From assembly GCA_002897915.1 (NCBI GenBank), contig BDTS01000087.1, positions 1 through 41,488 on the forward strand: a DNA stretch of 41,488 bases, read 5' to 3'. Made by a program: the position numbers and the translations under genes. The DNA comes from a bacterium BMS3Bbin09. Its GTDB lineage: Bacteria > Nitrospirota > Thermodesulfovibrionia > UBA6902. The notes below the pieces were generated by a model, which ran no database searches, had not been told where the DNA came from, and saw only the letters and a list, made by a program, of their open reading frames with translations. Positions 19,892 through 40,969 of the stretch are shown here, piece by piece (positions within the stretch are counted from its first letter, which is position 1; each line of letters starts with the position of its first letter).

Positions 19892-21712
19892 ATGAAATAC
19901 ACGTATTTTGAAATCAATAACTTCAAGGGTATTGAGAAGGTTAGAATTGATATAGATTCATCACCAAAAGGAGATGTGTATACTCTCGTTGGGCTAAATG
20001 AGAGTGGTAAGACTACAGTGCTTGAAGGTATCAATCTACTTACCTACCGTGAGGATCTTGACCCCCTCGATCTACCAGGATATGGAGAGCACGATATCCA
20101 TGACCTTATTCCAATCGCTAAGCGAGCAAATTTCAATGATAGCATAATGATTGAAGCTGGTTTCATGCCTACTGAAAGTGATGAGAAAATACTTGCACGC
20201 TTATTTAAAAAGAATGTCGGGGCCACACTAACTGAGCCGATTGGTGAATTCCATATAACTCAAGCATACAAATTTGAAAATTCAACGATGGTTGCGGGGC
20301 AGCCTAGCATCAAATGGAATATCAATCTTGTCGGAAAGCTAAAGAGACAAAGAATTCCAAAGAAAATCTCTAGTCCAAATTGGGCAGAGTGTATCCGGAT
20401 AATTAAAACTTTTTTGCCTTCGGTCGTTTACTTCCCTAATTTTTTATTTGAATTTCCTGACAAAATTTATCTTGAGAATCCACCAGATAACCCAGATAAG
20501 CACAATTTCTATTGTACAGTCTTACAAGATGTTTTAGATGCGATAGGAGATAACACAAATTTGCAGGATCATGTACTTTCAAGGGCAAAGAGCTCAAAGA
20601 CTTATGATAAACGAAGTTTAGAAAGCGGCCTTTTAAAGGTTGGTGCACACATAACCAAGACGGTATTTGAAAACTGGGATCGTATATTTAAAAGGCCTGC
20701 TGGAAAAAAAGAAATAATAGTAGATATAGAGCAAGATGCTCGAGGAGTTTACTACCTCCAGCTTCGTTTAAAAGATGGGAGCGACCTTTTTGCTATTAGT
20801 GAGAGGTCATTAGGATTCCGATGGTTTTTTACGTTCCTCTTGTTAACTCACTACAGAGGGTTTCGTAGTCTTGAACCAAGGAATGTCTTGTTTCTGATAG
20901 ATGAGCCTGCGTCAAACTTGCATCCCTCAGCTCAGACGCAGCTAATAGATAGCTTCACTAGACTACCTACCGGTTGTGGAATAATTTACACAACCCATAG
21001 CCATCATATGATCAAACCAGAATGGCTTGAGAATGCGTTTGTAGTCAAAAATGAGGGGCTTGACTATACGGATGCTGAGGATAACTATTCCGCAAAGGAA
21101 ACAAAAATAATACTGAGTAGATATAGGGAGTTTGCATCTAGACATCCAGAGCAATATACGTATTTTCAACCGATTCTAGATGTTTTAAATTACTGCCCAG
21201 GGCAATTAGAGAATGTTCCGGACGTTGTTATGCTCGAGGGTAAGAATGATTTTTATATCTTGAAATATATGTGTCAACAACAGAGAAGGGAGGAAGAGAT
21301 CAACCTAATGCCAGGTGGAGGGGCTGGCAGTCTTGATCAACCAATTCAACTCTATTTCGGGTGGGGGCGAAATTTTATTATACTACTCGATTCAGACGGT
21401 GAAGGTAAGACACAAAAAAATCGATATTTGGATAAATTTGGACTCGGCGCTCGTATATTCACTCTTGCAGATGCAGATGAGTCTTGGGGGAACAATGGTA
21501 TGGAGAGCCTATTTACAAAAGATGAGCAAATTAATATGCAAACTACGATTTATCCCGATTCTAGTAATTTCAACAAAACCCATTTTAACCGTGCTATACA
21601 AGAACTGTATCTTACAGATCGCGAAGTGGCGTTGTCAGAACAGACAAAGACTAAATTTGGCAACTTAATTGATAAATGTATTTCATGGTTAGATTTATCC
21701 ATAGATTACTAA
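19892..21712 (+). CDS. OLD-family ATP-dependent endonuclease (AAA ATPase plus TOPRIM)
   Basis: FEINNFKGIEKVRIDID, Walker A VGLNESGKTTVLEGI, LFLIDEPASNLHPSAQTQLID and TTHSHHMI (ABC-type ATPase), then TOPRIM-like VVMLEGKNDFYILKYM...FIILLDSDGEGK. Confidence 0.87.
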   Translation: MKYTYFEINNFKGIEKVRIDIDSSPKGDVYTLVGLNESGKTTVLEGINLLTYREDLDPLDLPGYGEHDIHDLIPIAKRANFNDSIMIEAGFMPTESDEKILARLFKKNVGATLTEPIGEFHITQAYKFENSTMVAGQPSIKWNINLVGKLKRQRIPKKISSPNWAECIRIIKTFLPSVVYFPNFLFEFPDKIYLENPPDNPDKHNFYCTVLQDVLDAIGDNTNLQDHVLSRAKSSKTYDKRSLESGLLKVGAHITKTVFENWDRIFKRPAGKKEIIVDIEQDARGVYYLQLRLKDGSDLFAISERSLGFRWFFTFLLLTHYRGFRSLEPRNVLFLIDEPASNLHPSAQTQLIDSFTRLPTGCGIIYTTHSHHMIKPEWLENAFVVKNEGLDYTDAEDNYSAKETKIILSRYREFASRHPEQYTYFQPILDVLNYCPGQLENVPDVVMLEGKNDFYILKYMCQQQRREEEINLMPGGGAGSLDQPIQLYFGWGRNFIILLDSDGEGKTQKNRYLDKFGLGARIFTLADADESWGNNGMESLFTKDEQINMQTTIYPDSSNFNKTHFNRAIQELYLTDREVALSEQTKTKFGNLIDKCISWLDLSIDY

Positions 21713-24382: not shown

Positions 24383-25198
24383 TTAATTCCCATTGTCAAG
24401 ATTAAGCCTTTCTTTTATATATTCTCTCAACACATCCATTGCCGCCCTGATCTCATCCGTCTGCGGCAGCTTCTCGATCAATCGCTCGATATACCCTCTC
24501 TCCTGCAACAGCCTGATGGACTCATCAAAGTAAAGGTCGTAGATCCATGAGAGCTTCATCAGCTTGAAGTCATTCTCTGTCCTTATGTTCGAATAAGAGG
24601 CAACCTCTCTGTTGTAGAGGTTCTCGATCATGATCTTTGAGTATTCGGGAGTGTCCGGCATCCCGAAGGCGGTTGCGGACGCGCTCTCTTCAGGATGGCT
24701 TTCGTAATATTCGATGAAAACCCGGAAGATATCGACCTTGTCCGCGTCACGCACCATTTTAAGAAAAAAAATCGTGTCTTCGTCGAATATTGTCGGTATG
24801 GAGAATGCGCCGTGAAAATTCACGACCTTAAGTACAAGCTCCCTTTCACTTTCGGACAGGCGCTCAAGGACACCTTCTTTAATCAATGTCTTCTTGCCCA
24901 GAAGCCCGTGGCTGAGCGAGATAGCATCCCTGAAGGTCCTGTATTTGGCATACTGAGGGAACCTCCCGATATCATGGAAAAGCGCGACTGTCTCGGCAAG
25001 CCTCATTTGATCATCACTAAGTGACAATCCCTTTGCGATCAACAGGATGTTCTCTCTGACATTGCGCGTATGCTCTACCTTAAGCATTATATTTCTCTGG
25101 TCCTCTTCATTGGACGAATAAAAAAACTTCGTAAAATCGGAAAACCAGTTCCTGAAATATTTAAGGTCGTCTTCGGTCATCTTATTAAAACGTTTCAA
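24383..25198 (-). CDS. HD-domain phosphohydrolase
   Basis: VEHTRNVRENILLIAKGLSLSDDQMRLAETVALFHDIGRFPQY (H...HD), MVRDADKVDIFRVF (D). Confidence 0.88.
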   Translation of the reverse strand: MKRFNKMTEDDLKYFRNWFSDFTKFFYSSNEEDQRNIMLKVEHTRNVRENILLIAKGLSLSDDQMRLAETVALFHDIGRFPQYAKYRTFRDAISLSHGLLGKKTLIKEGVLERLSESERELVLKVVNFHGAFSIPTIFDEDTIFFLKMVRDADKVDIFRVFIEYYESHPEESASATAFGMPDTPEYSKIMIENLYNREVASYSNIRTENDFKLMKLSWIYDLYFDESIRLLQERGYIERLIEKLPQTDEIRAAMDVLREYIKERLNLDNGN

Positions 25199-25202
25199 AC
25201 GT

Positions 25203-25319
25203 GTAGGGGCACCCCCCTGTGGGTGCCCTTTTGAATTTTATCGTCTCTTATCAGGGCAGGCACGGGGGCCTGCCCCTACGTTATGTCTTTTGTAAGGGCA
25301 CGGCATGCCGTGCCCCTAC
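25203..25319. repeat. Three consecutive family A-type palindromes
   Basis: 25203-25230 gtaggggcacccccctgtgggtgccctt; 25253-25279 agggcaggcacgggggcctgcccctac; 25292-25319 gtaagggcacggcatgccgtgcccctac. Confidence 0.9.
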
Positions 25320-25339
25320 ATTTTATTTGTCACCTGTCT

Positions 25340-26701
25340 TTAATATTTATACTCCATGACCATCTGATCGAGCGAATCATCGCGGAGGAGGTACTGAACA
25401 TTGTCCTCTGCTATCATTTTGAACGCATACTTGATCACTTCCTTGTACAAGTCACAGAATACGGCCTTTTTGTACATGTTACCGCGAGCATACATCTCTG
25501 CCGGGCAGGGCGATCCGCAGATGTGCCTGAAGTCACAGACATCGCACTCATCTATCTTCTCAACCATCCTCGACCTGATTTCCTTAAACGGCTTTGAGTT
25601 CATCGCCTTTTCAATAGAGGTCTTGAAGATGTTCCCCCCTGAGAATTCCTTGAAACCTATAAATTCACCGCAAGGCACCATTGCACCGTCCGCGGTAACT
25701 GTGAGGAATGTCCTTCCGCCTCCGCAAGGTGAGATGTCACACATCATACGGCGCGCGGTAGGCGATATGATCGCGAGCAGGACATTAGCGAAGTTGCCGA
25801 TCACGATCTGCTGTTTTGTCTTTTTTGTAAGCTCCATCGCCGTGTTAACTGCCTTGATAAGGTTCTCCGCGTACTCGGCGTCATCCGCCTTTATCTTGTC
25901 AGCGCGTTTCTGTGTAAGGCGCACCGGGTTCAGTAGCACCATCGGCACCTTCTTCTTATGAAGGAACCGAACGAGCTGCGAGAGCTTTGTCACGTTGAGC
26001 TTTGTGACCGTGCAGATCACGTTCAGGCCTTCATAACCCTCAAACCACTTCAGTGCCTGGATCGCCTTTTTGTAGTTGCCGCCGCCGGCCCTTGATACAC
26101 GTGAAAGATTGTTATCAGCCTCCGTCGCGGCATCAAGGGAGATGCCGATACCCACGCGGTATTTCTTGATGAACTCCACGTCCTCTTTTTCGAGGAGGAG
26201 TGAATTTGTCTGGATACCGAAACGCATCTTCTTGTGATACTTCTTTATCGACTTGAAGAGGAGATCCTTGACCATGAGCGGCTCCGCAGCGTGATAAACG
26301 ATAACAGGTTGCTTCTTCTTGTCCTTGAAATAGTCCTCGATCCTGCTAAGCGTCAGGTCGAGCTGTTCCCATGTCATCTGGGTGCCGTGTGTCCTGATCT
26401 TCGAGGGAATATAGCAGTACGGGCAGTTCGCGTTGCATCTGTCTGTGGGGTCAATATAAACACAGTTAAGCGGCTCGTTGAACCTGAAGTCATGCATCTC
26501 CTTGTCAAGATGCTTCAGCTCTTTTTTATAGAGATCGATCAGGTTCTGGGGGAGGCTAAAGTCTCCGTTGTTCCTCGGCAGCGCGCTCCAGAAAATATTT
26601 TCCGGATCAAGCGCCAGCTTCCAGTTCTCATCTATATCCGAAAACGAGAGGCCCCTCTCAACATTGGTCTCTGAACATCCGCATTTACTCTTCTTACTCA
26701 T
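25340..26701 (-). CDS. Radical SAM/SPASM peptide-modifying enzyme (CbpB-like)
   Basis: Radical SAM cluster motif DPTDRCNANCPYCYIP; SPASM-like C-terminal Cys array MCDISPCGGGRTFLTVTADGAMVPCGEF...CDVCDFRHICGSPCPAEMYARGNMYKKAVFCDLYKEV. Confidence 0.9.
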   Translation of the reverse strand: MSKKSKCGCSETNVERGLSFSDIDENWKLALDPENIFWSALPRNNGDFSLPQNLIDLYKKELKHLDKEMHDFRFNEPLNCVYIDPTDRCNANCPYCYIPSKIRTHGTQMTWEQLDLTLSRIEDYFKDKKKQPVIVYHAAEPLMVKDLLFKSIKKYHKKMRFGIQTNSLLLEKEDVEFIKKYRVGIGISLDAATEADNNLSRVSRAGGGNYKKAIQALKWFEGYEGLNVICTVTKLNVTKLSQLVRFLHKKKVPMVLLNPVRLTQKRADKIKADDAEYAENLIKAVNTAMELTKKTKQQIVIGNFANVLLAIISPTARRMMCDISPCGGGRTFLTVTADGAMVPCGEFIGFKEFSGGNIFKTSIEKAMNSKPFKEIRSRMVEKIDECDVCDFRHICGSPCPAEMYARGNMYKKAVFCDLYKEVIKYAFKMIAEDNVQYLLRDDSLDQMVMEYKY

Positions 26702-26813: not shown

Positions 26814-26831
26814 ACATCGCAGCATGTTTAT

Positions 26832-26924
26832 GTAAGGGCACGGCATGCCGTGCCCCTACAAGTGAACATTACACATTGACACAATGTATGCTTATGTAGA
26901 GGCGGGTTTGAAACCCGCCCCTGC
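26832..26924. repeat. Two family A-type palindromes
   Basis: 26832-26859 gtaagggcacggcatgccgtgcccctac; 26896-26924 gtagaggcgggtttgaaacccgcccctgc. Confidence 0.9.
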
Positions 26925-26940
26925 AATTTCTTTTAAAAGA

Positions 26941-26974
26941 GTGGGCAGACGGTTTCAAAAAACCGCCTGCCCAC
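26941..26974 (-). terminator. Strong hairpin/terminator (or partial terminator) directly after the 46-aa peptide gene
   Basis: Minus strand gtgggcaggcggtttttt gaaaccgtctgcccac followed by tctttt; 15-bp stem with one G:U. Confidence 0.8.
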
Positions 26975-26985
26975 CGCTTCATTGA

Positions 26986-27126
26986 TTAAAGAGGCATTTT
27001 CTTTTTTGGCACATCACCGTACATTACAAAATGTGTCAAACCGTTCGCGGTCTTCGCACATTTCATGTGGTAGGAAATGGCTGTCTTTGTCTCTGCCTTC
27101 TTCTGGGTCTTCTTGGATTTTTTCAA
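26986..27126 (-). CDS. 46-aa candidate RiPP precursor peptide (CbpA-like), TTG start; absent from the ORF track
   Basis: Minus strand AAAGGAGGGTAATTTC-TTG; MKKSKKTQKKAETKTAISYHMKCAKTANGLTHFVMYGDVPKKKMPL*; near-perfect SD, Lys-rich leader, single Cys, immediately upstream of a radical SAM/SPASM gene. Confidence 0.85.
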   Translation of the reverse strand: MKKSKKTQKKAETKTAISYHMKCAKTANGLTHFVMYGDVPKKKMPL

Positions 27127-27153
27127 GAAATTACCCTCCTTTCAATGAAGTTT

Positions 27154-27187: not shown

Positions 27188-28261
27188 TTATGCTCCAACT
27201 GCCGACAAAGCTCCAAGCAGAATTTCATTATCCTTACGGGATTTGACGGCCACCCGTATATAAGAATCGTCAAGGCCCCTGAAGTTTGAACAGTCCCTGA
27301 GGATAATTCCCTTCTCCTTCATACCCTCGCATATTTTCACGCTATTACCTGTCTTGATCAGATAAAAATTGATTGCGGAAGGGAAAAACTCTATTCCAAT
27401 ATCCCTCAGTCCGTTCTCGATAAACTCTTTTTCATTTTTGATGAGATCCATGGTCCTGGCCGCGTAATCAATGTCATCTATCGCAGCGATCGCCGCCTTC
27501 TGTGCCAGTGTGTTCATTGTCCAGGGCTCCTTGAATTCCTTGATCCTCTCGATGATATCCGGATGGAACACCCCGTATCCGGCCCTCAGCCCTGTTATCG
27601 CGTAGAACTTTGTCATGGACCTCAGGACAATAAGGTACGGATTGCCCTGAACATGCCCGATCACTGAATCAGCTGGGCAGAAATCGATAAATGCCTCGTC
27701 CAGAACAAGAAGACATTTCATTTCCCGCGCGGCTTCAGCTATCCTGAGCACTTCTTCTTTGGTTAAAAGATCACCGGTCGGATTATTCGGGTTGCAGAGA
27801 AACGCCATATCGCACCCCTGCATTACTTCAATAAATTCCCTCGCAATTATTTTGTAACTATCTTCTTTCTTGAGGGTCAATTCTTTTATCTCTCCGCTTT
27901 TTATCGCGTTTCCATACTCTGAGAACGCCGGAGCCGTTATGAGCACCTTGCCCGGCTTCAACGCAGCAGGAAGAAGATATATAAGTTCGGTACTCCCGTT
28001 CCCGCAGATTATCGAGTTGGGGTCGATATTGTGGTATTGCGCTATCACTTGCCTCAATTCAGACGCGTCCGGATCCGGATAATGGACGAGGTTGTCCAGT
28101 TCAGCCCTGATCGCCTCTTTTACCCTGTCCGAGATACCAAGCGGATTGATCGACGCGCTGAAATCAATAAGTTCAGATGCGGGTATCCCTGTCTCTTCCG
28201 AGATCCTGTATATGTTCCCACCATGTTCCGGTCTGTTTATTTCCATAGTCTCTACACTCAT
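27188..28261 (-). CDS. cobD: Threonine-phosphate decarboxylase / histidinol-phosphate aminotransferase-like
   Basis: MEINRPEHGGNIYRISEETGIPASELIDFSASINPLGIS is typical of CobD (CobC-type); NPNNPTGDL, SMTKFYAITGLRAGYGV (PLP Lys). Confidence 0.93.
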   Translation of the reverse strand: MSVETMEINRPEHGGNIYRISEETGIPASELIDFSASINPLGISDRVKEAIRAELDNLVHYPDPDASELRQVIAQYHNIDPNSIICGNGSTELIYLLPAALKPGKVLITAPAFSEYGNAIKSGEIKELTLKKEDSYKIIAREFIEVMQGCDMAFLCNPNNPTGDLLTKEEVLRIAEAAREMKCLLVLDEAFIDFCPADSVIGHVQGNPYLIVLRSMTKFYAITGLRAGYGVFHPDIIERIKEFKEPWTMNTLAQKAAIAAIDDIDYAARTMDLIKNEKEFIENGLRDIGIEFFPSAINFYLIKTGNSVKICEGMKEKGIILRDCSNFRGLDDSYIRVAVKSRKDNEILLGALSAVGA

Positions 28262-29466
28262 ACCAATAAAATTGCCGCAAGAAGCCCGAGGAAAGAGGTC
28301 AGTTTAATGATGCCTACGGCTATGAGTGCCGCCTCCATATACGCCTCGGCACTCCCTGGCTTGAGACCCTCTTTCAGGATATTGTCTCCTATGTAAGGCT
28401 TTACACCCTCGACTCCTTCGTAAGTCGATGGCCCCCCGAGCCTTACCCCGAGGGCGCCCGCCATTGCTGCCTCGGGCACACCGGCATTCGGACTCGAGTG
28501 ATTCTTTCCATCTCTTATCATTATCGAATAAGCCCTCTTGGCACTTTCAAAGTCAGGGCCCTTTATCTTCCCTTCGATCCAGTTCAGAAAGCTTCCTACA
28601 TAGCGGCCCATCCTGTTGCGCATGCCTTCAAGCCATTCTGCGCCCCAGCTTACAGCGAACCTGCAGGAGTTAATACAATATACTGCCGCCACTATCAACG
28701 CGCCGGTGATCCTTGCCGGAATATAGTTGGCAATATCATCCAGCCTGGCTGCTGCCCAGCCAAAACTCCGATATTTATCATTCTTATATCCAATCATAGA
28801 ATCGAGAGTGTTAATTGCCTTGTATGTCATTGCGAGCGGCAGCCCCCCCAGAACAAAATAGAATAAGGGGGCGGTTATCCCGTCCGATGCGTTTTCCGAA
28901 AGTGTCTCTATAACAGCCTTCAGTATCCCGGCCTCCTGCAGGTTCTGCGTGTCCCTGCCAACGATCATAGAAAGCTTGTCCCTCGAGATATTGAGTTCGC
29001 CTCTTCCAAGTTCCCGTATCACGCCAAGCGCCGAACCAATGAGCCCGCGGGTCGCGAGTGTTGTCGAGACCAGGAAGACATAAATGCCGAACGAGATAAA
29101 TTCGGCTATCGGAGAAAAATCCAGGCTATCTAAGATCCTGTCCAGAATAAAAAATGAAATAAACGTGCCCGCAACCATAATAGCAACAAGCGCGGCCCCC
29201 GCGATCTTCTCCTGCACCCCTGTCGAAAGATCTTTCCCCTTGCGAAGGAAAGGCGGTACAATATCATTCAAGTTGACCCGGGGACGCGGCTTATCATCGC
29301 CTTTACTCTCTTCTTCTGCGCCTTCCCAATTGATCAGATTCCTGAGCCAGGTCTCAAGCTTCTCTATAAGCAGTCCCATTGCCTGGACCGGATGGGGCAT
29401 CCATCTCGGGTCGCCTGTGATCAGGTCAACTAAATATGCCAATGTAAGTGCCATGGTCTCTGTCAT
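28258..29466 (-). CDS. cbiB: Adenosylcobinamide-phosphate synthase CbiB
   Basis: LAYLVDLITGDPRWMPHPVQAMG, ETLSENASDGITAPLFYFVLGGLPLAMTYKAINTLDSMIGYKNDKYRSFGWAAARLDDIANYIPAR, NHSSPNAGVPEAAMAGALGVRLGG. Confidence 0.97.
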   Translation of the reverse strand: MTETMALTLAYLVDLITGDPRWMPHPVQAMGLLIEKLETWLRNLINWEGAEEESKGDDKPRPRVNLNDIVPPFLRKGKDLSTGVQEKIAGAALVAIMVAGTFISFFILDRILDSLDFSPIAEFISFGIYVFLVSTTLATRGLIGSALGVIRELGRGELNISRDKLSMIVGRDTQNLQEAGILKAVIETLSENASDGITAPLFYFVLGGLPLAMTYKAINTLDSMIGYKNDKYRSFGWAAARLDDIANYIPARITGALIVAAVYCINSCRFAVSWGAEWLEGMRNRMGRYVGSFLNWIEGKIKGPDFESAKRAYSIMIRDGKNHSSPNAGVPEAAMAGALGVRLGGPSTYEGVEGVKPYIGDNILKEGLKPGSAEAYMEAALIAVGIIKLTSFLGLLAAILLV

Positions 29467-31043
29467 TTCATCTCCTCCGTCTTATTCATGCAGTACTCCA
29501 TTCCGACTTCTCTCAATATGAAACAGATGTCCAAACTCTTGCCAAGGATATCCGCCCACCGCTCTATCGCCTCCTCTTTCTTTGAGTGATAGTTGGTCGT
29601 CTCTTCCCTCGGGGGAAGGCCTTTTTTCATCCTCAGGGAATTTATAACAGCGGTCCTAAGGCCGTCATTATCGAATATACCATGGATATACGTCCCCCAG
29701 ACATTCTCTTTGACGGAACCGTCAGGGACAGGATCGTTCGAGCCGTTCAAACGTTTTATATTGAACAGCCCCACATCCCCGGTCGTATGCCCCATATGGA
29801 TCTCATATCCCTTGAGCTGGTTCCATTTACATGTTGATGTGCTTTGCACCGCCCCGAACCATTTCTGGCTGACAAGGTTGGCTGATAGCTGACAAGTGGT
29901 CTTTGTCCTGTCCATTGTTGTTACTGTATCGAGCAAATCCATTCCATCTATTTCCGCGTGTGAACTTTCAACATTATCAGGATCAACGATCTTTTGGCCG
30001 AGCATCTGATAGCCCCCGCATATGCCTGCTACCGATGTCCCGTTCTCAGCCGCTCTCCTTACAAGCTTATCGATCCCGTTCTCCCTCAAAAATAGAAGAT
30101 CGGTCACGGTATTCTTTGAACCCGGAACAATAATAAGATCCGCGCTCTTTATGTCCATCTCATCGAGGGAATATTTCAGTTCAACGTCCGGCTCATACAT
30201 GAACGAGTCAAAGTCCGTAAAGTTGGATATGTACCTCAGGCCGAGCACCACGATCTTCACCGGCTTGTGATACTCACCCTTGTGAGATTGCTTCCATCTC
30301 TCGGCAGGGATCGCGTCCTCTTCATCCAGTCCAAGATCCCCATGATAATAAAGCGTGCCTATCACGGGCTTGTCCGTCTTCTCCTCTATCATCCGGAGCC
30401 CGGGCCGGAGGATATTCATATCGCCCCTGAACTTGTTCACAATGAATGCCTTAATATAATCTGCGTCGGTCCTTCCGTCTTCGCGTACGCGGTCCCCCAG
30501 CAGGCCGACCGTCCCGTAAAAAGCGGCGAAGACGCCGCCCTTATCTATGTCGCCTACCAGTATCACAGGTGCGTCCGTATAACGGGCAACGCGCATGTTC
30601 ACAACTTCTTCATCCTGAAGATTGATCTCCGCGGGACTGCCCGCGCCTTCGATCACGATCAGGTCATAATCCTTTGCAAGCCTGTCGTACGCGGCCGTGA
30701 TCTCTTTCCAGACCCGGTCCTTGATCTCATAATATTCATGCGCCTTTAGAGTCGCATAGACGCTGCCGTTGAGTATCACCTGACAGCCTGCCTCGCCGGT
30801 TGCCTTCAACAGTACGGGATTCATATCGTTTACCGGCTCTATACCCGCGGCCTCTGCCTGGAAGGCCGTTGCCCTGCCGATCTCACCGCCCTCCTTTGTG
30901 ATAAAGGAATTGAGCGCCATGTTCTGGGACTTGAAGGGCGCGACCTTTATGCCCATGTTCCTGAATATCCTGCAGAGCCCGGCAACGATAACGCTTTTGC
31001 CCGCGCCTGATCCTGTTCCCTGTATCATGATTGCTTTAGCCAT
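29463..31043 (-). CDS. cobQ: Cobyric acid synthase; start moved to 31043
   Basis: MAKAIMIQGTGSGAGKSVIVAGLCRIF...VAPFKSQNMALNSFITKEGGEIGRATAFQAEAAGIEPVNDMNPVLLKAT; VAGICGGYQMLG; GYEIHMGHT. The ORF-track prefix MCCCTVALFLT lies in a repeat tract. Confidence 0.96.
   Translation of the reverse strand: MAKAIMIQGTGSGAGKSVIVAGLCRIFRNMGIKVAPFKSQNMALNSFITKEGGEIGRATAFQAEAAGIEPVNDMNPVLLKATGEAGCQVILNGSVYATLKAHEYYEIKDRVWKEITAAYDRLAKDYDLIVIEGAGSPAEINLQDEEVVNMRVARYTDAPVILVGDIDKGGVFAAFYGTVGLLGDRVREDGRTDADYIKAFIVNKFRGDMNILRPGLRMIEEKTDKPVIGTLYYHGDLGLDEEDAIPAERWKQSHKGEYHKPVKIVVLGLRYISNFTDFDSFMYEPDVELKYSLDEMDIKSADLIIVPGSKNTVTDLLFLRENGIDKLVRRAAENGTSVAGICGGYQMLGQKIVDPDNVESSHAEIDGMDLLDTVTTMDRTKTTCQLSANLVSQKWFGAVQSTSTCKWNQLKGYEIHMGHTTGDVGLFNIKRLNGSNDPVPDGSVKENVWGTYIHGIFDNDGLRTAVINSLRMKKGLPPREETTNYHSKKEEAIERWADILGKSLDICFILREVGMEYCMNKTEEMK
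29866..29897. repeat. GCTGATAGCTGA/GCTGACAAG-type short repeat inside cobQ
   Basis: tggctgacaaggttggctgatagctgacaagt; resembles the AGCTGATAGC-like tracts between the tRNAs. Confidence 0.55.
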
Positions 31044-31054
31044 TGTTAAAAAAA

Positions 31055-31087
31055 GTGCAACAGTGCAACAGCACAATAGTGCAAAAG
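31055..31087. repeat. GTGCAACA-type short tandem/inverted repeat upstream of cobQ
   Basis: gtgcaacagtgcaacagcacaatagtgcaaaag. Confidence 0.85.
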
Positions 31088-31096
31088 TTAAAAGAC

Positions 31097-31711
31097 TTAA
31101 ACGACAAAATTAATTTGTTTAACTACAGGATAGTCCCACATCTCGATCACATTCAATGCGCCAAAGTCCTGTTCTATCCTGAAAATATTCTCAAGAGGTA
31201 TCCCGAGCATCTCACACAGGATGACCCTGGTCACCCCGCCGTGCGACACGACAGCGATATCCTCTCCCTCATGGTCCTCCATGATCTTATTGAATGCGGG
31301 CATCACTCTCTCCCGCAGATCAAGCGTGCTCTCGCCCTCCATGGGACTGAACCTAAGCGGATCACGCGCCCATGCACTAAAGGCATCGGGCCACTTATCG
31401 CTTATCTCATCAAAGGACATGCCCTCCCACTCCCCAAAGTTGCGTTCCTTCAGTTCATCGATAACAATCGGTTTGAGCCCGAAGGGCTCCGCGATAATCT
31501 CCGCGCTCTTGCTCGCCCTGCTGAGACCGGAACAGTACACAGCGCCTATTGCACTATTGCGCTTCTGCACTATTGCACTAAGAAAACTCGAGAGTTTTCT
31601 TATCTGTTCCACCCCGTTCGCGGATAGAGAAACATCAATGTGCCCGTTATAGCGGCGAGGGTCCGAGTCCTCGACCTCTCCATGTCTTATTAGATAAATT
31701 TTTGTGCCCAT
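31097..31711 (-). CDS. cobC: Alpha-ribazole phosphatase / histidine phosphatase family
   Basis: KIYLIRHGEVEDSDPRRYNGHIDVSLSANGVEQ, GLSRASKSAEII, NFGEWEGMSFDEI, VVSHGGVTRVIL. Confidence 0.92.
   Translation of the reverse strand: MGTKIYLIRHGEVEDSDPRRYNGHIDVSLSANGVEQIRKLSSFLSAIVQKRNSAIGAVYCSGLSRASKSAEIIAEPFGLKPIVIDELKERNFGEWEGMSFDEISDKWPDAFSAWARDPLRFSPMEGESTLDLRERVMPAFNKIMEDHEGEDIAVVSHGGVTRVILCEMLGIPLENIFRIEQDFGALNVIEMWDYPVVKQINFVV
31546..31582. repeat. GCACTATT-type repeat inside cobC
   Basis: ctattgcactattgcgcttctgcactattgcactaag; same unit type as 31055-31087 in the opposite orientation. Confidence 0.75.
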
Positions 31712-32487
31712 ATTATTGTCACTATCAAAAATATTAAGACCGCGATCTCATTCATGGCCCCGAACGAATCACCTGTCATACCCCCGAAGAGCTTGTTGAA
31801 GAAGAGTACTGACAGGAAGCTGAACCCGTAAAGAACCGGCATCGCGAACATCAGATAAAAGATATAAAGCGGGAACTGCATAACGATCGTACAGACCAGC
31901 CCCGTAAGAATGACCGCTATTGCTGAAGCTATTAAAAGCTGCTTGCCTTCCGTATGCTCGATAAAGAGATTCCCGAGCCCGTCTTTCCGCGCGGACCTGC
32001 CGTGAAAGGCCGCTATCACCATTGCCCAGCGCGACAGTATCGGCATTGAGACAACGGTCGCATAATAGGCTGGAGCAGGCGCATGAAAGAACAGCGCGCT
32101 CAACATGGTAAACTTCAGCAAAAGCACCATTACTATGGATATCACACCCATCGGACCGACAGTGCTGTCCTTCATGATCAAGAGCTTTTTTTCGTAGTCA
32201 CCCCGTGATGCAACAGCGTCAAAGGTGTCTGAAAGTCCGTCAAGATGAAGACCGCCGTTCATTATCACCATGATGAGAACGAGCAGCGCACTCGTCAGCT
32301 CTGCTGGAAAATACTCCATAAAGACCGATGCAAAAAAGGCGAGCAGAACCCCCTCGCCTAATCCGACAAGGGGAAAGAAGGACGTTGTTCTCCCCATCTC
32401 TTCAGGAGAGACCTCGCCCGTGTCCTTAACAGGAACTATCGTCAGGAACTGGGATGCAAGTATCACCTTTTTCATTGTCTTTACCAT
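31690..32487 (-). CDS. cobS: Adenosylcobinamide-GDP ribazoletransferase
   Basis: FLTIVPVKDTGEVSPEEMGRTTSFFPLVG, GGLHLDGLSDTFDAVASRGDYEKKLLIMKDSTVGPMGVI, FNKLFGGMTGDSFGAMNEIA. Confidence 0.95.
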   Translation of the reverse strand: MVKTMKKVILASQFLTIVPVKDTGEVSPEEMGRTTSFFPLVGLGEGVLLAFFASVFMEYFPAELTSALLVLIMVIMNGGLHLDGLSDTFDAVASRGDYEKKLLIMKDSTVGPMGVISIVMVLLLKFTMLSALFFHAPAPAYYATVVSMPILSRWAMVIAAFHGRSARKDGLGNLFIEHTEGKQLLIASAIAVILTGLVCTIVMQFPLYIFYLMFAMPVLYGFSFLSVLFFNKLFGGMTGDSFGAMNEIAVLIFLIVTIIWAQKFI

Positions 32488-32492
32488 GACAA

Positions 32493-33566
32493 TTATCCTT
32501 TCTTACCGGCTACCTCGGCTTCCGCAAAGGTCGCCATCTCCTTGTAAATCTTGAGTCCTCCTTCAATGACGAGCATCGCAAGTGCGACCCCCGTGCCTTC
32601 ACCAAGTCTCATGTCGAGATCAAGTATCGGTCTCAGGCCAATCTTTTCGAGCAGTGCCTTATGTCCTATCTCCTGGGACCTGTGGGCCGCAAACATATAG
32701 TCCTTTGTCTTCGGTTCTATCATGTACGCTATCAATGCACCGGCAGTTGATATGAACCCGTCAATTACAACGGGGACCTTGTTCGCCGCCGCGCCGATGA
32801 TCAATCCGGCGATGGCCGCGATCTCCGCGCCTCCGATCTTTGAAAGCACATCAATCGGATCGGAAGCATCAGGAGTGTTGATCGATATAGAATCCTTGAT
32901 GACCTGGACCTTATTCTTCAACACATCGTCATTTATGCCGGTGCCCCTGCCAGTGATATCTTCGACTGATACACCTGTGAGCACGGCTGTTATTGCGCTT
33001 GATGGGGTTGTGTTCGCAATGCCCATCTCACCGGTGCCGAACATTTTATAACCTTTCCCGGCGTATTCATTCGCAAGCTCTATCCCGACATTAATGCACT
33101 TTTCGGCCTCTTCCCTTGTCATGGCAGGACCCTTACGCATGTTCTTTGTGCCGGATACAACCTTGCGGGAGACAAAGCCCTCTTTATCTAAACCGCCGAA
33201 GTCATAGTCCACCCCAATATCAACAGCAACGACCTCCGCGCCCGCGTGACGGGCGAGAACATTTATGCCCGCGCCTCCGTTAACAAAGTTCATGACCATC
33301 TGCGGGGTCACCTCTTTCGGGAACGCTGATACCCCTTCTTCAGCAACGCCATGGTCGCCCGCGAAAGTGAAAACAACTTTTTTATCGAGAGAGGGCATGT
33401 TCTCCTCTGTTATCGCGACAAGCTGTTTCGCGAACTCCTCGAGCCTGCCGAGGCTGCCCTGCGGCTTGGTAAGGCTGTCCAGCCTGTTCTGCGCCTCTTC
33501 AGCGAATTTACCGTTACTGTTTGTGATGCTGCTTGATGTTTTCTTATAATCCATACTATCCTCCAT
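32493..33566 (-). CDS. cobT: Nicotinate-nucleotide--dimethylbenzimidazole phosphoribosyltransferase
   Basis: [103 protein letters not shown]. Confidence 0.97.
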
Positions 33567-33614: not shown

Positions 33615-34133
33615 TTATTTGATTTTTAAAGGTATCCCGGCAACCACCAGATATACCTCCTCCGATATTCCCGCTATCCTCTGATTTAAATTGCCCGCAA
33701 GGTCCCTGAACTTTCTTGCCAGGTCGTTCTCGGGTACAATGCCCGTCCCGACCTCGTTCGAGACCATATAAACCGTTGAGAGGTCCTTTGATCTATCTAA
33801 TTCATCAATAAATTTATTGATCGCCCCTTCGGTATCTTTCATATGATGCATAATATTCGAAAGCCATAACGTCAGACAGTCAATAAGGACAACGCTGTAT
33901 TTATCCCCGGTCTCTGACAGTACCTTTGAAACATTCAGCGGCTCTTCATAGGTATCCCATTCATCGCCTCTTTCGGCCTTGTGCCTACTGATGCGTTCTT
34001 TCATCTCCCCGTCAAGTGCTTCAGCGGTCGCAATAAAGGCCTTTTTGCCTTTTACCCCGGATGCCTGGGTCAATGCGAACGAGCTCTTTCCGCTCTTTGC
34101 GCCGCCCAGGACAAAAATTATCTTTAGTGCCAT
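33615..34133 (-). CDS. cobU: Adenosylcobinamide kinase / adenosylcobinamide-phosphate guanylyltransferase
   Basis: IIFVLGGAKSGKSSFALTQA, ISRHKAERGDEWDTYEEP, VLIDCLTLWLSNIM, VSNEVGTGIVPENDLARKFRDLAGNLNQRIA. Confidence 0.96.
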   Translation of the reverse strand: MALKIIFVLGGAKSGKSSFALTQASGVKGKKAFIATAEALDGEMKERISRHKAERGDEWDTYEEPLNVSKVLSETGDKYSVVLIDCLTLWLSNIMHHMKDTEGAINKFIDELDRSKDLSTVYMVSNEVGTGIVPENDLARKFRDLAGNLNQRIAGISEEVYLVVAGIPLKIK

Positions 34134-34146
34134 TTCCCTTTCTCCT

Positions 34147-34875
34147 TTAGTTCCTCAGCCTGTATGTGAGCGGAAGCTCGATCCTGCTGGCAATGAGCGG
34201 AAACGGAGCCGCTTTTTTGACCACCTGCACGGTCGCGTTGTCGAGGATGCCGGAGCCGGAGCTTTTCAGTATCTTGATCCCGTAGGGAGTTCCGTCCGCC
34301 ATAACATTAAAACTCACATGCACCGTGCCTTCGATGCCCCTCTTTCTGGCAATGATCGGATATGTCTTCACCCTTTCTATGGCCATATATATCAACTCGA
34401 TGGTCCCGGGGAGGATCCCAGCCCCCTGTCCGGGCGGAGCAAACGCATGGCTGCCAGATGCAGGTTGATCATAAACAGCCTGTGCAACTACTATCTCTCC
34501 ACCATGATCAACGGCCTCTCCCGGTAAAGGGGTAACCCCGGCAGCTAGTTCTTCCCTCACAGGCTCCTTTGCCACAGGCTCAACTTCTTCAGTAATTACA
34601 TCTTCACTTAACGCTTTAGCTTTCTCAACAACATCATCCGCCCTGGTCATCTCCGGCTCAACACTGGCGATAACAGGCAGCTTCGCTTTTTCAACAACCC
34701 GAACACCAGCTGCCTTAACTGCCTGCGGTTCATCTGCCGCAAGGCTGATAAAGACAACCTCCGTCTCAGGCAGTTTCCCGCTGCCCCCAAACAATCTTGC
34801 GGAAAGCAAGAGGGCAGCAGAGAAAAAGCAGATATGCAGTACTATTGATACTGTTATTGTCTTTTTAAGCGTCAT
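34147..34875 (-). CDS. tonB: TonB-family energy transducer
   Basis: N-terminal TM, Pro/Glu/Val-rich linker, C-terminal TonB domain ARKRGIEGTVHVSFNVMADGTPYGIKILKSSGSGILDNATVQVVKKAAPFP. Confidence 0.9.
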   Translation of the reverse strand: MTLKKTITVSIVLHICFFSAALLLSARLFGGSGKLPETEVVFISLAADEPQAVKAAGVRVVEKAKLPVIASVEPEMTRADDVVEKAKALSEDVITEEVEPVAKEPVREELAAGVTPLPGEAVDHGGEIVVAQAVYDQPASGSHAFAPPGQGAGILPGTIELIYMAIERVKTYPIIARKRGIEGTVHVSFNVMADGTPYGIKILKSSGSGILDNATVQVVKKAAPFPLIASRIELPLTYRLRN

Positions 34876-34899: not shown

Positions 34900-36735
34900 C
34901 TATATCGACAATTTAACTCCGGTAAATACCGAAGCTCCCGGGGTACCGTAACCACCCGCAACCTCATAGTGTTGGTTGAACAGGTTGTCCACACGTCCGA
35001 AAATCTTAAGGTTATTATTTAGTTTATAACTGCCGCTCAAGTCCACGAGTATGTATGAAGGCAGATTTCCAACGCTCACGGACTCATATACCTTGCTGAC
35101 ATATGTATAGCTTGCCATTACAGAGGCCGGGCCGTCGGAATAATCCAGTGTAACGTTCAGCTTGTCGAGCGGCCTCCTCTGGAGCCGGTGCCCGGTGGCC
35201 TTATCCTCGGAATCAGTATACGAATAAAACGAACTCGCGGTCAGGCTTTCGCTTATCTTAACAACAGCCCCTGCCTCGATCCCCCTGACGGTCGATTCCG
35301 CTATATTCTGCGGTACATACTGCCACGAGCCGGGCGGGGTCTCTATCCATTCTATCAGGTCTTTATAATCCTGATTAAAATAAGTAAGGGAGACCGTGGC
35401 CCTCTCCTTTACAATCTCCTTCTCAACCCCAACCTCCCAGGCATTGCTCTTCTCGGGCTTCAGGTCCGGATTGCCGCTGCTCCATGCGTCCTGGTAATAG
35501 AGCTCATTCAATGTCGGTGTCCTGAAGCCGGTACCGTAGCTGCCTTTAAGTTTAAGCCCGACGGTTTTGATGTTATAAACTCCACCGACCCTGTAAGTTG
35601 TCTTATGTCCGGATGCCTCATGGTCATCATATCTGAGGCCCGCGTTCAATACAAGATCATCATTCAAAAGCTTCAGTTTATTATTAATATAGAACGCATT
35701 GTTGTTTACCGTCCTCTCAAATACCCCGATGTTCTCGCCTTCCTCTTCTTCGTATTCAGCTCCAAGTGTAAGAGTATAACTCTCTGTCAGATATAGGTTA
35801 TGCTGCCAGTCAACCGTATCCAGGGCCGTGATTATGTCCGCATTATTCCAAAGGGTGTCAGGGTCGGTGTATTTCAGATAATCCTTGACCCTCGATATAG
35901 TGAGCACCTGCTCCCACTCATCGATAAGGTAAAGCTTTGCCTTTCCGGACATAACATAATGCCTCCCAGTCTGGACATAGTTCAGGTCGTCAGCGCCGAA
36001 TGCATCAAGCTCCGAGCGGTCACCTGAATACCTGCCCGAGAGTTCCAGCTCAAACTTCTCCGTCGGCCTGATCCCGATCCTAGCTGACACGAAATCGTTC
36101 TTATATCCGTCGGCCTCGGTGCCGGTCTTTGCGGCTGATATGCCGTCGGTCTCATAGTGACTGACTGTCACCCTGAAGTCCGCCTTGTCCGTACCGCCGG
36201 AAAAACTCACGGACGGGCTGAATGTTTTATTCGCCCCTTCTTCATAGTAGCCCTCTATCTTCAGAGGGCCTTTCCCTTTTTTGGTAATGATGTTAATGAC
36301 CCCAGCCATGGCATCTGATCCATAGATCGTGCTCTGCGCTCCCTTTACGATCTCGATCCTCTCAATATTGTCGGACATAATATTGGCAAAGTCGAAATCG
36401 CCGGTGGTCGTGCTCTTTACCTTTACCCCATCTATCATCACCAGTGTCTGTGCTGCGCTTCCACCCCTTAAAATAACGGTTGAGAGCTTGCCCGAACCAC
36501 CGTTCTGCACAACATTGATCTCGGGAACGTCCTTCAATACATCAATTATAAACTCTTTCCCCTCTGCCTCGATCTTTTCCTGCGGGATCACGAGCACACT
36601 GCTGGTCGTCTCCTCAACCGCTTCTTCAATCTTTGTTGCACTTACGATAACTTCTTTTACCTTAATGGGCTCATCTCCGGCAAATACCGTCGATGCACCG
36701 AAAACCAGAATTAATAATATCCATAATCTATACAT
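34900..36735 (-). CDS. btuB: TonB-dependent outer-membrane cobalamin receptor
   Basis: Signal peptide, plug PQEKIEAEGKEFIIDVLKDVPEINVVQNGGSGKLSTVILRGGSAAQTLVMIDGVKV, GAQSTIYGSDAMAGVINIITKKG, C-terminal barrel LKIFGRVDNLFNQHYEVAGGYGTPGASVFTGVKLSI. Confidence 0.94.
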   Translation of the reverse strand: MYRLWILLILVFGASTVFAGDEPIKVKEVIVSATKIEEAVEETTSSVLVIPQEKIEAEGKEFIIDVLKDVPEINVVQNGGSGKLSTVILRGGSAAQTLVMIDGVKVKSTTTGDFDFANIMSDNIERIEIVKGAQSTIYGSDAMAGVINIITKKGKGPLKIEGYYEEGANKTFSPSVSFSGGTDKADFRVTVSHYETDGISAAKTGTEADGYKNDFVSARIGIRPTEKFELELSGRYSGDRSELDAFGADDLNYVQTGRHYVMSGKAKLYLIDEWEQVLTISRVKDYLKYTDPDTLWNNADIITALDTVDWQHNLYLTESYTLTLGAEYEEEEGENIGVFERTVNNNAFYINNKLKLLNDDLVLNAGLRYDDHEASGHKTTYRVGGVYNIKTVGLKLKGSYGTGFRTPTLNELYYQDAWSSGNPDLKPEKSNAWEVGVEKEIVKERATVSLTYFNQDYKDLIEWIETPPGSWQYVPQNIAESTVRGIEAGAVVKISESLTASSFYSYTDSEDKATGHRLQRRPLDKLNVTLDYSDGPASVMASYTYVSKVYESVSVGNLPSYILVDLSGSYKLNNNLKIFGRVDNLFNQHYEVAGGYGTPGASVFTGVKLSI

Positions 36736-36889: not shown

Positions 36890-37085
36890 AGGTTGCGATT
36901 TTCCGGGTATTCAGGGTCTCCTGACTCAGGGCCTCCTACTCGCCCGCCTTCCCGGCCTTTATGACCAGTGGCTTTTGTAGGGGCATATTGCCATATACCC
37001 TACAATGGGCTTTCGCTCCCATCACAGTTGCGGGACAGTTCCCGTTTTTCACGGGATTCCCCTTAAACATCCGGGTGCTGCATTT
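36890..37085 (-). promoter_or_regulatory. Cobalamin riboswitch (AdoCbl class-like) upstream of btuB
   Basis: Minus strand carries, in order, GGGGAATCCCGTGAAAAACGGGAACTGTCCCGCAACTGTGATGGGAGCGAAAGCCCA ... AGCCACTGG ... GGCCGGGAAGGCGGGCGAGTAGG ... GAGTCAGGAGACC: the B12-box core and flanking conserved elements. Confidence 0.95.
36977..37003. repeat. Family A-type palindrome inside the cobalamin riboswitch
   Basis: gtaggggcatattgccatataccctac, between ...GCGAAAGCCCAT and AGCCACTGG on the minus strand. Confidence 0.88.
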
Positions 37086-37096
37086 ATATGTTCTTG

Positions 37097-37864
37097 TTAG
37101 TACCTTATATATACGCCTCCTGCATCATCTCTTTTCAACTCAATATCAACATCAAACGCCTCGTTAAGCCGTTCTCTGGTCAGAACTGTTTCAGGCGGGC
37201 CGCTGCCGAGGATCCTGCCTTCCTTGATCATTATTATCCTGTCAAACTGAAAGGCAATATTTATATCATGCAGGGCCATAATAAGGGTCATGTCTCTCTT
37301 TTCCCTCAAGTCCTTCAACAGCCGTAGCAGCTCTATCTGGTATTTTATGTCCAGGTTCGCCAGCGGCTCGTCAAGAAGAACAAGCCCCGCCCCCTGGAGA
37401 AGCGTCATCGCTATATACACCCTCCTGCGCTCACCCCCGCTAAGGTTCGTTATGAGCGAGTCAGCGTAACTGGAAAGCCCGACCATCTCTATCGCGTCAT
37501 CAACCGTTAATTCGGGCAGGGTGTCATAAGGGTACATACCCATGCCAACGAATTCCCTTACTGTAAAAGGGATACTCATATCAAGTAACTGGGGAAGATA
37601 GCTCAGGAGCTTTGCCCTGTCCCTGTTGCTGTAATCATGAATTTCCTTTCCCCATAGATCGACCGTCCCCCTTGTGGGGCGAAGTATCCCGCTTGCCAGC
37701 TTGAGAAGGGTCGACTTGCCTGAACCGTTCGGACCGAGCAGGCCTATGAACTCCCTGTTATCAACAGCAAGAGATATGTCTTTGATAAAGGGCTTCTCCT
37801 TTTCATATGAAAAGTCTGCGCCTTTGATCTCGAGTATATGTTTCTCAGATGCTGAGTACATCAC
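37097..37864 (-). CDS. btuD: Cobalamin/Fe3+-siderophore ABC transporter ATP-binding protein
   Basis: GLLGPNGSGKSTLLKLASGILRPTRGTVDLWG, NLSGGERRRVYIAMTL, LVLLDEPLANLDIKYQIELL. Confidence 0.9.
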   Translation of the reverse strand: MMYSASEKHILEIKGADFSYEKEKPFIKDISLAVDNREFIGLLGPNGSGKSTLLKLASGILRPTRGTVDLWGKEIHDYSNRDRAKLLSYLPQLLDMSIPFTVREFVGMGMYPYDTLPELTVDDAIEMVGLSSYADSLITNLSGGERRRVYIAMTLLQGAGLVLLDEPLANLDIKYQIELLRLLKDLREKRDMTLIMALHDINIAFQFDRIIMIKEGRILGSGPPETVLTRERLNEAFDVDIELKRDDAGGVYIRY

Positions 37865-38813: not shown

Positions 38814-39674
38814 TTATTTCTTCAGGTACTGCGCAAGCTCTTCAAGTCCCGGGATGACCCTCGGCCCGAGCCTGTAGAGGTTCTCGCTCACAAAAAAGAC
38901 CTTCCCGTTCTTCACTGCGGGCAGATACGCGATCCTCTCCAAAAGCCCGCTCGACTTCTTCTGCATATCCATTCCCGTTGCCGCGCCTACAAAGATAATG
39001 TCCGGCGATCTGCGCACTATCTCCTCGATAGAGTATTTGGGATACTGGATCTTCGCGTCTTCCGCGATATTGGTCGCACCGAGCAGGGTTATTGCGTCAT
39101 GGATCGCTGTCCCCGGGCCCGCCACCATCAGGGGTTCCGGCCAAAGCATAAAGACCACTTTCAGGCCCTTGTCCTTCCTCGCGGCCTTATATTCACTAAG
39201 TGGTCCTTCTATGCTTGATGCAAGCCGGTCAAATCCCTCCTCTGAATCAAGGGCCTGTCCCATCTTCCTTATCCCCTCAGGCAGTTGATCTATCGTACGC
39301 GTCATAAAAACATAGGTCTTTATACCAAGGGAATGGAGCCTCGCCTCAAACTCCTTAGAGTTACCGTTGGTAGTCATAATGACTATGTCCGGTTTTAAGG
39401 AGAGTACCGCTTCGAGCGACGGGTTCGACATCCCGCCTATCTTTGTCCTGGCCTTAGCCTCTTCCGGGTAGTCGCAGTAGCTGGTCACACCTATAACCCT
39501 CTCTCCGAGGCCTGCTGCAAAAAGTATCTCGGTCATGCTCGGAGCAAGCGAGACGATCCGTCCAGGCGCTTCGGCGTGAGAAACAGTTGAGAGTTGCAGG
39601 TTAAGAGTTAAGAGTAAAAAGAACAGAACGATAAAACCCAGCCTGTTTTTTTTATTTAAAACTGTTTTCCTCAT
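38814..39674 (-). CDS. btuF: Cobalamin-binding periplasmic protein
   Basis: GRIVSLAPSMTEILFAAGLGERVIGVTSYCDYPEEAKARTKIGGMSNPSLEAVLSLKPDIVI; signal peptide. Confidence 0.93.
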   Translation of the reverse strand: MRKTVLNKKNRLGFIVLFFLLLTLNLQLSTVSHAEAPGRIVSLAPSMTEILFAAGLGERVIGVTSYCDYPEEAKARTKIGGMSNPSLEAVLSLKPDIVIMTTNGNSKEFEARLHSLGIKTYVFMTRTIDQLPEGIRKMGQALDSEEGFDRLASSIEGPLSEYKAARKDKGLKVVFMLWPEPLMVAGPGTAIHDAITLLGATNIAEDAKIQYPKYSIEEIVRRSPDIIFVGAATGMDMQKKSSGLLERIAYLPAVKNGKVFFVSENLYRLGPRVIPGLEELAQYLKK

Positions 39675-40969
39675 TAAGTTTCCTTCCCCAAGCTGATCAG
39701 TGAGAATAAAAGCGTGTCGACCTCATCAATAAGCGCCTTGAACATCCCTCCGTAACTTTTCGAATCAGAGAAGAGAACCAGCCTTATCGCCCTGATCTCA
39801 TCATCATCGCATCTCTCATAAGTGATATGTCCATCCTGCATGGCATGCCTCTCAAGGACAAGGAGCCGCTCCGCCTTTTCGATGAACGGAACCAGTAATT
39901 CTTTTATCTTCCCCAGTGCCGGTACATAAGACGCCGCGCCCGCTTCTCTGGATGCCATTAACTCTAATATTTCCTTCATCATTATATAGAGCGTGTTGTA
40001 TTCAAAACCCCTTACCCCTCGTCTCCATTGCAGGAGCATCGGGGTCCGCCAGAACCAGAGAAAGTTCCTTTCCCCGAGCGCGATCAGGTCCGAGCAGAGG
40101 TTTTGTAGGGGCAATTCATGAATTGCCCCTACGGGATCGTGAGAAAATGATTTCTTATTATAATTCTGTGCTTCGGCTTCCGCCCTCTCTCCCGCAAGAT
40201 ATTCCCATAAATTAACGAGCGCCTGCTCTCCGTTAAGGTCCCCGGGCGTATCAAAGTGAATAAGTGACAATATCACCTTTCCCTTTCCATACATGCCCTC
40301 AATTATCGACGGTTCTTTTACCAATCTTCCGGGATCAAGATTTATCCGGTATATATCTTCAAACTTCTTCCAGCCTCCGCAGTCCTCTGTATCTCCGACA
40401 TTCAGGTCCGAACTGAATGCATCGGGCAGGGCGCTGCCATATGTTGCGAGGACATTCACCCCGTTGTCCCCGACTATGAACTGCGACGGCCACCACGCAT
40501 GAAAAATTGGAACGGCCAAGCCTTTCCATATCGGATGTTCACTAATATTCAGTTCGATCCTGCCGCTGAAGCTCGGCACTCTTTCGCTCGTGGGTCTCCT
40601 CATGACATTGAGCAGCCCCATGCCGCCCTTTGCCCCGGTCGCAAGCCCGGCACCGCCGCAAAAGCCAAGATAACTGCCGCCACGAGAGACAAAATCCTGT
40701 ATTGCCCTGATCCCGGACTCACCAAGCTTCTTACCCTTATTCGACGCCCACCCTCCAGGCACAAAAAGCATCCTGTACCCGGCAAGTGCGCCGGACTGTG
40801 TCTCCTCGGCCGTGACAAGGTTGAACGGAAGCCCGAGTCCCTTCAGCGCCTTATGCGCCATAAGGCCCCAGAGGAACGATTCGTCCCAGAGGAAGGCGAC
40901 ACCCCCCCTTCGCCCCCCCTTATCAAGGGGGGGATAGGGGGGTAATTTAAATCTTATATTTTCTGTCAT
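39674..40969 (-). CDS. BPL_N (biotin-protein-ligase N-terminal, amidotransferase-like) domain protein with repeat-encoded insertions
   Basis: VAFLWDESFLWGLMAHKALKGLGLPFNLVTAEETQSGALAGYRMLFVPGGWASNKGKKLGESGIRAIQDFVSRGGSYLGFCGGAGLAT (GATase-like nucleophile region GFCGG). Confidence 0.75.
   Translation of the reverse strand: MTENIRFKLPPYPPLDKGGRRGGVAFLWDESFLWGLMAHKALKGLGLPFNLVTAEETQSGALAGYRMLFVPGGWASNKGKKLGESGIRAIQDFVSRGGSYLGFCGGAGLATGAKGGMGLLNVMRRPTSERVPSFSGRIELNISEHPIWKGLAVPIFHAWWPSQFIVGDNGVNVLATYGSALPDAFSSDLNVGDTEDCGGWKKFEDIYRINLDPGRLVKEPSIIEGMYGKGKVILSLIHFDTPGDLNGEQALVNLWEYLAGERAEAEAQNYNKKSFSHDPVGAIHELPLQNLCSDLIALGERNFLWFWRTPMLLQWRRGVRGFEYNTLYIMMKEILELMASREAGAASYVPALGKIKELLVPFIEKAERLLVLERHAMQDGHITYERCDDDEIRAIRLVLFSDSKSYGGMFKALIDEVDTLLFSLISLGKET
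40105..40132. repeat. Family A palindrome inside the BPL_N gene
   Basis: gtaggggcaattcatgaattgcccctac; encodes VGAIHELPL in the minus-strand reading frame. Confidence 0.95.
40905..40943. repeat. CCCCCCTTATCAAGGGGGG-type repeat at the 5' end of the BPL_N gene
   Basis: ccccccttcgccccccttatcaaggggggatagggggg; encodes PPYPPLDKGGRRGG. Confidence 0.85.

Follow-up and report, generated by a model that had tools for sequence, protein, structure and literature searches.

Introduction

Short peptides paired with a SPASM radical SAM enzyme are known from cofactor biosynthesis, as in the PQQ (PqqA/PqqE) and mycofactocin (MftA/MftC) systems, where the peptide carries an invariant, cofactor-like core. The RiPPs made by this class of enzymes are often secreted bioactive compounds, and the sulfatase motif recognized by the anaerobic sulfatase maturases (anSME) is C-x-P-x-R. 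To our knowledge, no radical-SAM-modified peptide cofactor, chaperone or ligand is part of the described B12 pathways or of cobalt handling. A further pair, CbpA/CbpB, is represented in NCBIfam by two curated models, TIGR04164 (cobo_pep) for the peptide, with a cut-off of 35 bits, and TIGR04163 (rSAM_cobopep) for the enzyme, an equivalog model with a cut-off of 375 bits, whose short names may suggest that the curators had already seen a link with cobalamin. A literature search disclosed no paper on this pair or its product, the inspected matches to "CbpA" being journal-code DOIs. The gene pair described here belongs to this named but uncharacterised family and lies in a stretch of 41,488 nucleotides (contig BDTS01000087.1 of the Nitrospirota bacterium BMS3Bbin09), hereafter referred to as the window.

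Organization of the gene run in the window

In the window, the minus-strand genes btuB-tonB-cobU-cobT-cobS-cobC-cbiP-cbiB-cobD-cbpA-cbpB form a contiguous run located behind an RF00174 riboswitch, and the spacing between them suggests that they might belong to a single transcript. The features are the following:

36899-37112, minus strand: cobalamin riboswitch aptamer RF00174 (80.4 bits), heading the run that ends in cbpA-cbpB
34900-36735, minus strand: btuB-like TonB-dependent B12 receptor
34147-34875, minus strand: tonB-like gene
33615-34133, minus strand: cobU, adenosylcobinamide kinase/guanylyltransferase
32493-33566, minus strand: cobT
31690-32487, minus strand: cobS
31097-31711, minus strand: cobC, alpha-ribazole phosphatase
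29463-31076, minus strand: cbiP/cobQ, cobyric acid synthase (sequence cluster)
28258-29466, minus strand: cbiB (sequence cluster)
27188-28261, minus strand: cobD, threonine-phosphate decarboxylase (339 bits)
27135-27142, minus strand: Shine-Dalgarno site AAAGGAGG, 8 nt ahead of the TTG of cbpA
26986-27126, minus strand: cbpA of clade II, 46-aa precursor-like peptide with a TTG start
26940-26975, minus strand: strong hairpin immediately downstream of the cbpA stop
25340-26701, minus strand: cbpB, radical SAM/SPASM peptide-modifying enzyme (TIGR04163, 490.9 bits)
24383-25198, minus strand: HD-domain protein recurring in B12 operons of the class

An earlier, sequence-only reading of this DNA had placed a short peptide gene between cobD and a SPASM-type radical SAM gene, and this arrangement is borne out by the cobD match and by the Pfam Radical_SAM and SPASM domains of the downstream product; regarding B12, that reading had gone no further than naming cobD as a neighbour. 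For comparison, 81 CbpB loci were considered, i.e., the window and the best 80 loci obtained when one genome of each prokaryote species was scanned. The HD-domain protein is embedded in B12 operons in 18 of them and might possibly be a corrinoid-pathway phosphatase, which is a guess. Elsewhere in the window, a 431-aa protein (39674-40969, minus strand) has no NCBIfam match and recurs in five B12 loci (cluster 21), and the product of 19892-21712 (plus strand) is an AAA_15 ATPase with a weak OLD-like TOPRIM match, possibly a defence-type gene.

The cbpA gene

The ORF at 26986-27126 encodes MKKSKKTQKKAETKTAISYHMKCAKTANGLTHFVMYGDVPKKKMPL (46 aa); its coordinates, TTG start, translation and Shine-Dalgarno site are all as previously read. 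The ORF is short and starts with TTG, which is compatible with a chance reading frame; however, the frame and its Shine-Dalgarno site are kept across phyla. Seventy-two cbpA homologues start with ATG (36), TTG (30) or GTG (6), and 68 of them are preceded by a Shine-Dalgarno site that a rough score rates as good. The conserved core of the window peptide spans residues 16-46 (AISYHMKCAKTANGLTHFVMYGDVPKKKMPL, 31 residues) and is separated from that of closer relatives by 11-21 synonymous changes as against 0-3.5 nonsynonymous ones, the ratios being 11:0 and 14:0 in the two relatives whose core is identical; the resulting pN/pS is about 0-0.1, with synonymous sites near saturation. This is the purifying selection by which the earlier reading had proposed to judge the ORF. 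Since synonymous differences far exceed nonsynonymous ones, the frame is more than chance, and the probability of a fortuitous ORF, already refuted by this conservation, is practically nil: cbpA is a real gene whose core is under extreme purifying selection. Pfam and PDB searches with the peptide gave no credible match.

Pairing of cbpA with cbpB

When the 46 residues were used in a tblastn search of CbpB loci from this phylum, a homologue was found beside the CbpB gene in every complete locus retrieved. A CbpA profile matched 26 of the 296 genomes of the phylum, including all 23 genomes with a CbpB above the cut-off. Two matches lacking CbpB (G054 and G134) lie on contigs that end just or shortly after cbpA, so the idea of an orphan cbpA in G134, whose locus is cut by the contig end, was rejected; the match in G191 was weak and was discarded as spurious. 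The best 80 CbpB loci belong mostly to Nitrospirota and Omnitrophota, and also to ANME-1 and other archaea, Planctomycetales and Deltaproteobacteria; in 73 of them, the profile located cbpA immediately ahead of cbpB. As for the other seven, four are truncated by a contig end, one is N-masked, and two (L047 and L104) have no cbpA in the stretch examined. Homologues beside related radical SAM genes, and co-occurrence with those genes, are what the earlier reading had led one to expect.

CbpA sequence families

The sequence-only reading had pointed to a resemblance to the CbpA/CbpB pair, and this resemblance holds: the enzyme passes TIGR04163, and its partner encoded upstream, the peptide, is conserved. 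However, the window peptide has no match to TIGR04164, and none of 59 clade II CbpA reaches 35 bits (26 weak matches, best E 2.4e-5), whereas members above the cut-off have E values of about 1e-12; an intermediate sequence (L017) scores 15.1 bits. The window peptide is nevertheless encoded by a short ORF directly upstream of CbpB and aligns with CbpA sequences that pass the model, C23, G29, L30 and H32 being invariant in 24 aligned CbpA (tblastn and alignment, model-passing CbpA included). Judged by position and alignment, it is the CbpA partner of CbpB.

Among 68 distinct cores, the G, the L, the H and the aromatic residue are invariant, and the Cys is present in all but one. The exception is a homologue (L106, 4489-4623) with Gly replacing Cys, which points either to a misassembly or to a Cys that is not essential. 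The constant positions are C23, G29, L30, H32 and F/Y33, while position 20 is either H or R; of the core residues singled out earlier, C23 is thus among the constant ones, and Y19 and H20 are not. A Lys/Thr-rich leader followed by a core had also been proposed: the N-terminus is indeed Lys-rich, but the layout, with a variable N-terminus and an invariant C-terminal core, is the reverse of the usual RiPP one.

Two clades can be recognized, and the CbpB tree splits them with full SH-aLRT support. Clade I peptides (e.g., L008-L011, L034 and the Methylovirgula plasmid pHY1) read C-x(3)-G-[TA]-G-L-[SA]-H-Y-[IV]-L, in two spacer variants, and, where scanned, are above the TIGR04164 cut-off or annotated as CbpA. 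Clade II peptides, including that of the window, mostly read C-x-x-T-[AGS]-N-G-L-[ST]-H-[FY], have a longer tail, and occur in Nitrospirota, Omnitrophota and ANME-1 archaea. The curated CbpA model in its present form therefore overlooks a large precursor clade, and the genes of this clade, short and often starting with TTG, are easily missed by gene callers.

The radical SAM enzyme CbpB

On the strength of its sequence, the product of 25340-26701 is CbpB. Its CX3CX2C motif (C89/C93/C96) and eight SPASM Cys are invariant in 37/37 sequences. Glu346 is likewise invariant and aligns with the Asp after the PC motif in anSME. The best fold matches of the predicted structure (mean pLDDT 88.7) are the peptide-modifying enzymes CteB, anSMEcpe and ChlB. 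Both auxiliary clusters should, by analogy, be fully Cys-ligated, and such ligation, read from the alignment, would speak against thioether formation via a free cluster site. An assignment of CbpB as an anaerobic sulfatase maturase was rejected, the TIGR03942 score being 115.4 bits against a cut-off of 349 and the corresponding stretch of CbpA reading C-A-K-T-A.

The N-terminus of CbpB is arranged as strand-strand-strand-helix; this region matched no solved structure at E 0.001, and no RRE-like (PqqD-like) fold was found. Together with the homologue that lacks the core Cys, this would suit a CbpA acting as a small, unmodified regulatory or partner protein, with CbpB acting on another substrate. 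We consider such an arrangement improbable, given that the cbpA-cbpB pairing is adjacent and near-exclusive and that CbpB resembles peptide-modifying SPASM enzymes in both sequence and fold.

Association with cobalamin and cobalt genes

Within the flanks covered, which measure about 6 kb per side in most loci, a cobalamin or cobalt gene is present in 74 of the 81 CbpB loci. Across these loci, cbpAB fills 13 different two-sided slots among such genes, as between CbiO and CbiD, CobU and CobT, CbiB and CbiA, or CbiP and CbiB; the fact that the slot changes while the operon is kept argues for a function of cbpAB in the B12 pathway. Moreover, four stand-alone cbpA copies outside B12 operons are preceded by a cobalamin riboswitch sequence of their own. 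This riboswitch ends 84 nt before the cbpA start in L133 (G134) and 103 nt before it in L129 (G021), and in both cases the interval contains a T run and a stem resembling that of an intrinsic terminator; it lies about 88 nt before cbpA in L131 (G176), and in L092 cbpA is immediately preceded by a repeat of a riboswitch tail and by a terminator. The riboswitch tail and terminator of L092 occur twice around an N run (5454-5830), which may be a duplication or an assembly artefact. No B12 link is visible for cbpAB in L095, L096 and L109, and neither B12 genes nor a cobalamin riboswitch lie near the pair on Methylovirgula pHY1. On this plasmid of Methylovirgula sp. HY1 (L135, 7843-9422), an annotated clade I cbpA-cbpB is located beside pqqA, pqqD, pqqE and another radical SAM gene.

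As secretion is common among RiPPs made by such enzymes, the product might be an antimicrobial or a signal that is found in B12 operons incidentally. This is very improbable: no exporter, peptidase or immunity gene recurs beside cbpAB, the core does not diversify, and 13 slots in B12 operons plus dedicated riboswitches are unlikely to be incidental.

The distribution of the pathway was also compared with that of CbpB. CbiD is enriched in CbpB-bearing genomes (15/23 versus 94/273 other genomes of the phylum, p 0.006), and CbpB is absent from 94 of the 109 CbiD-bearing genomes of the phylum, so that it is not needed for B12 synthesis and is rather an accessory to it; a dependence of CbpB on de novo synthesis was rejected, since CbiD is enriched and yet not required. 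CobS was too common to be informative. CbiJ/CobK (precorrin-6A reductase, PF02571) is undetectable in 22 of the 23 CbpB-bearing genomes, and also in 17 of 25 CbpB-negative, CbiD-bearing genomes of the class (p 0.024, confounded by family). A replacement of CbiJ by CbpAB was rejected, the absence not being specific to CbpB-bearing genomes, as was the replacement of a missing pathway step, since most genomes have a CbiX-type chelatase whether or not they carry CbpB. The CbiJ/CobK step is unfilled in G000 and its relatives.

The missing reductase and the invariant, cofactor-like core might point to a product that serves not as a metal ligand but as a redox cofactor, comparable to PQQ or mycofactocin, in some reductive step of corrinoid metabolism, candidate reactions being Co(II) to Co(I) reduction or ring reduction. 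This seems rather unlikely, since CbiJ is missing from CbpB-negative genomes too and no dedicated partner oxidoreductase recurs beside cbpAB.

The hairpin between cbpA and cbpB

In the window, the stretch of 61 nt behind the cbpA stop has a folding energy of -31.1 kcal/mol (z -6.4). Most Nitrospirota loci have a strong hairpin at this place: over 42 of them, the median energy of the 60 nt downstream of cbpA is -28 kcal/mol versus -8.4 in 76 other gaps of the same loci (p 3e-15), although the loci are related and G+C also differs (0.53 versus 0.38); the effect is weaker outside Nitrospirota. Some of these hairpins in relatives are REP-like palindromes, and a palindromic repeat of similar kind, TGTAGGGGCACGGCATGCCGTGCCCTTACA, is present in the window in the intergenic gaps 26831-26860 and 25291-25320. 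The hairpin is likely a partial terminator or 3' stabiliser through which the precursor would exceed the enzyme.

Proposed role of the CbpA/CbpB pair

Taken together, the CbpB model match, the near-exclusive pairing, the purifying selection, the B12 context, the riboswitches, the hairpin and the fold likeness favour the idea that CbpA is a peptide of the RiPP type that is modified by CbpB, produced at low B12 and employed intracellularly in corrinoid or cobalt supply, and we regard this as probable. The loci devoid of a visible B12 link, the CbiD-bearing genomes devoid of CbpB, the Gly of L106 and the lack of a detected RRE-like domain weigh against it. CbpA would be the precursor and CbpB its radical SAM/SPASM maturase, most likely modifying the invariant C-terminal segment around C23 and G29-L30-[ST]31-H32-[FY]33. 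The window pair would be transcribed under the cobalamin riboswitch, which would imply production under B12 scarcity, and the hairpin may yield more peptide than enzyme. The product might be a modified small peptide, cofactor-like or binding metal or corrinoid, that aids B12 or cobalt supply; an action within the cell is to be expected, given that the core hardly varies between phyla or between two domains and that neither exporter nor peptidase recurs. That this represents a riboswitch-controlled, radical-SAM-modified peptide cofactor, chaperone or ligand for B12/cobalt supply, extending from Nitrospirota to ANME-1, has in our opinion an even chance of being correct. For this uncharacterised peptide-enzyme pair, the riboswitch and operon evidence thus provides a B12/cobalt hypothesis that can be tested.

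Comparison with known systems

The PQQ and mycofactocin systems share with CbpA/CbpB a short peptide, a SPASM radical SAM enzyme and an invariant cofactor-like core; however, the sequences differ, and neither a peptidase nor a PqqD-like chaperone nor a redox partner recurs beside cbpAB. The closest solved structures to CbpB are those of CteB, a SCIFF (ranthipeptide) maturase, both in sequence (5wgg, 107 bits) and in fold (5why). Nevertheless, in the alignment CteB lacks an equivalent of C321, present in all CbpB, which by this alignment would have no open coordination site at auxiliary cluster I, and SCIFF/ranthipeptide substrates are Cys-rich in the core, whereas the CbpA core has one Cys. 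The anSME enzymes align with the eight SPASM Cys of CbpB, and anSMEcpe (4k36) is among its best fold matches (TM 0.81-0.83 by target length), but their substrate motif is absent from CbpA and no sulfatase is involved. Lastly, CbpA sequences that pass TIGR04164 share with the window peptide the motif C-x(5)-G-L-[STA]-H-[FY] and the position just upstream of CbpB, while lacking N28 and the YGDVPKKKMPL-type tail of the window's clade; the CbpB of this clade forms a well-supported separate branch, archaeal members included, and in both clades some relatives are located in B12 operons.
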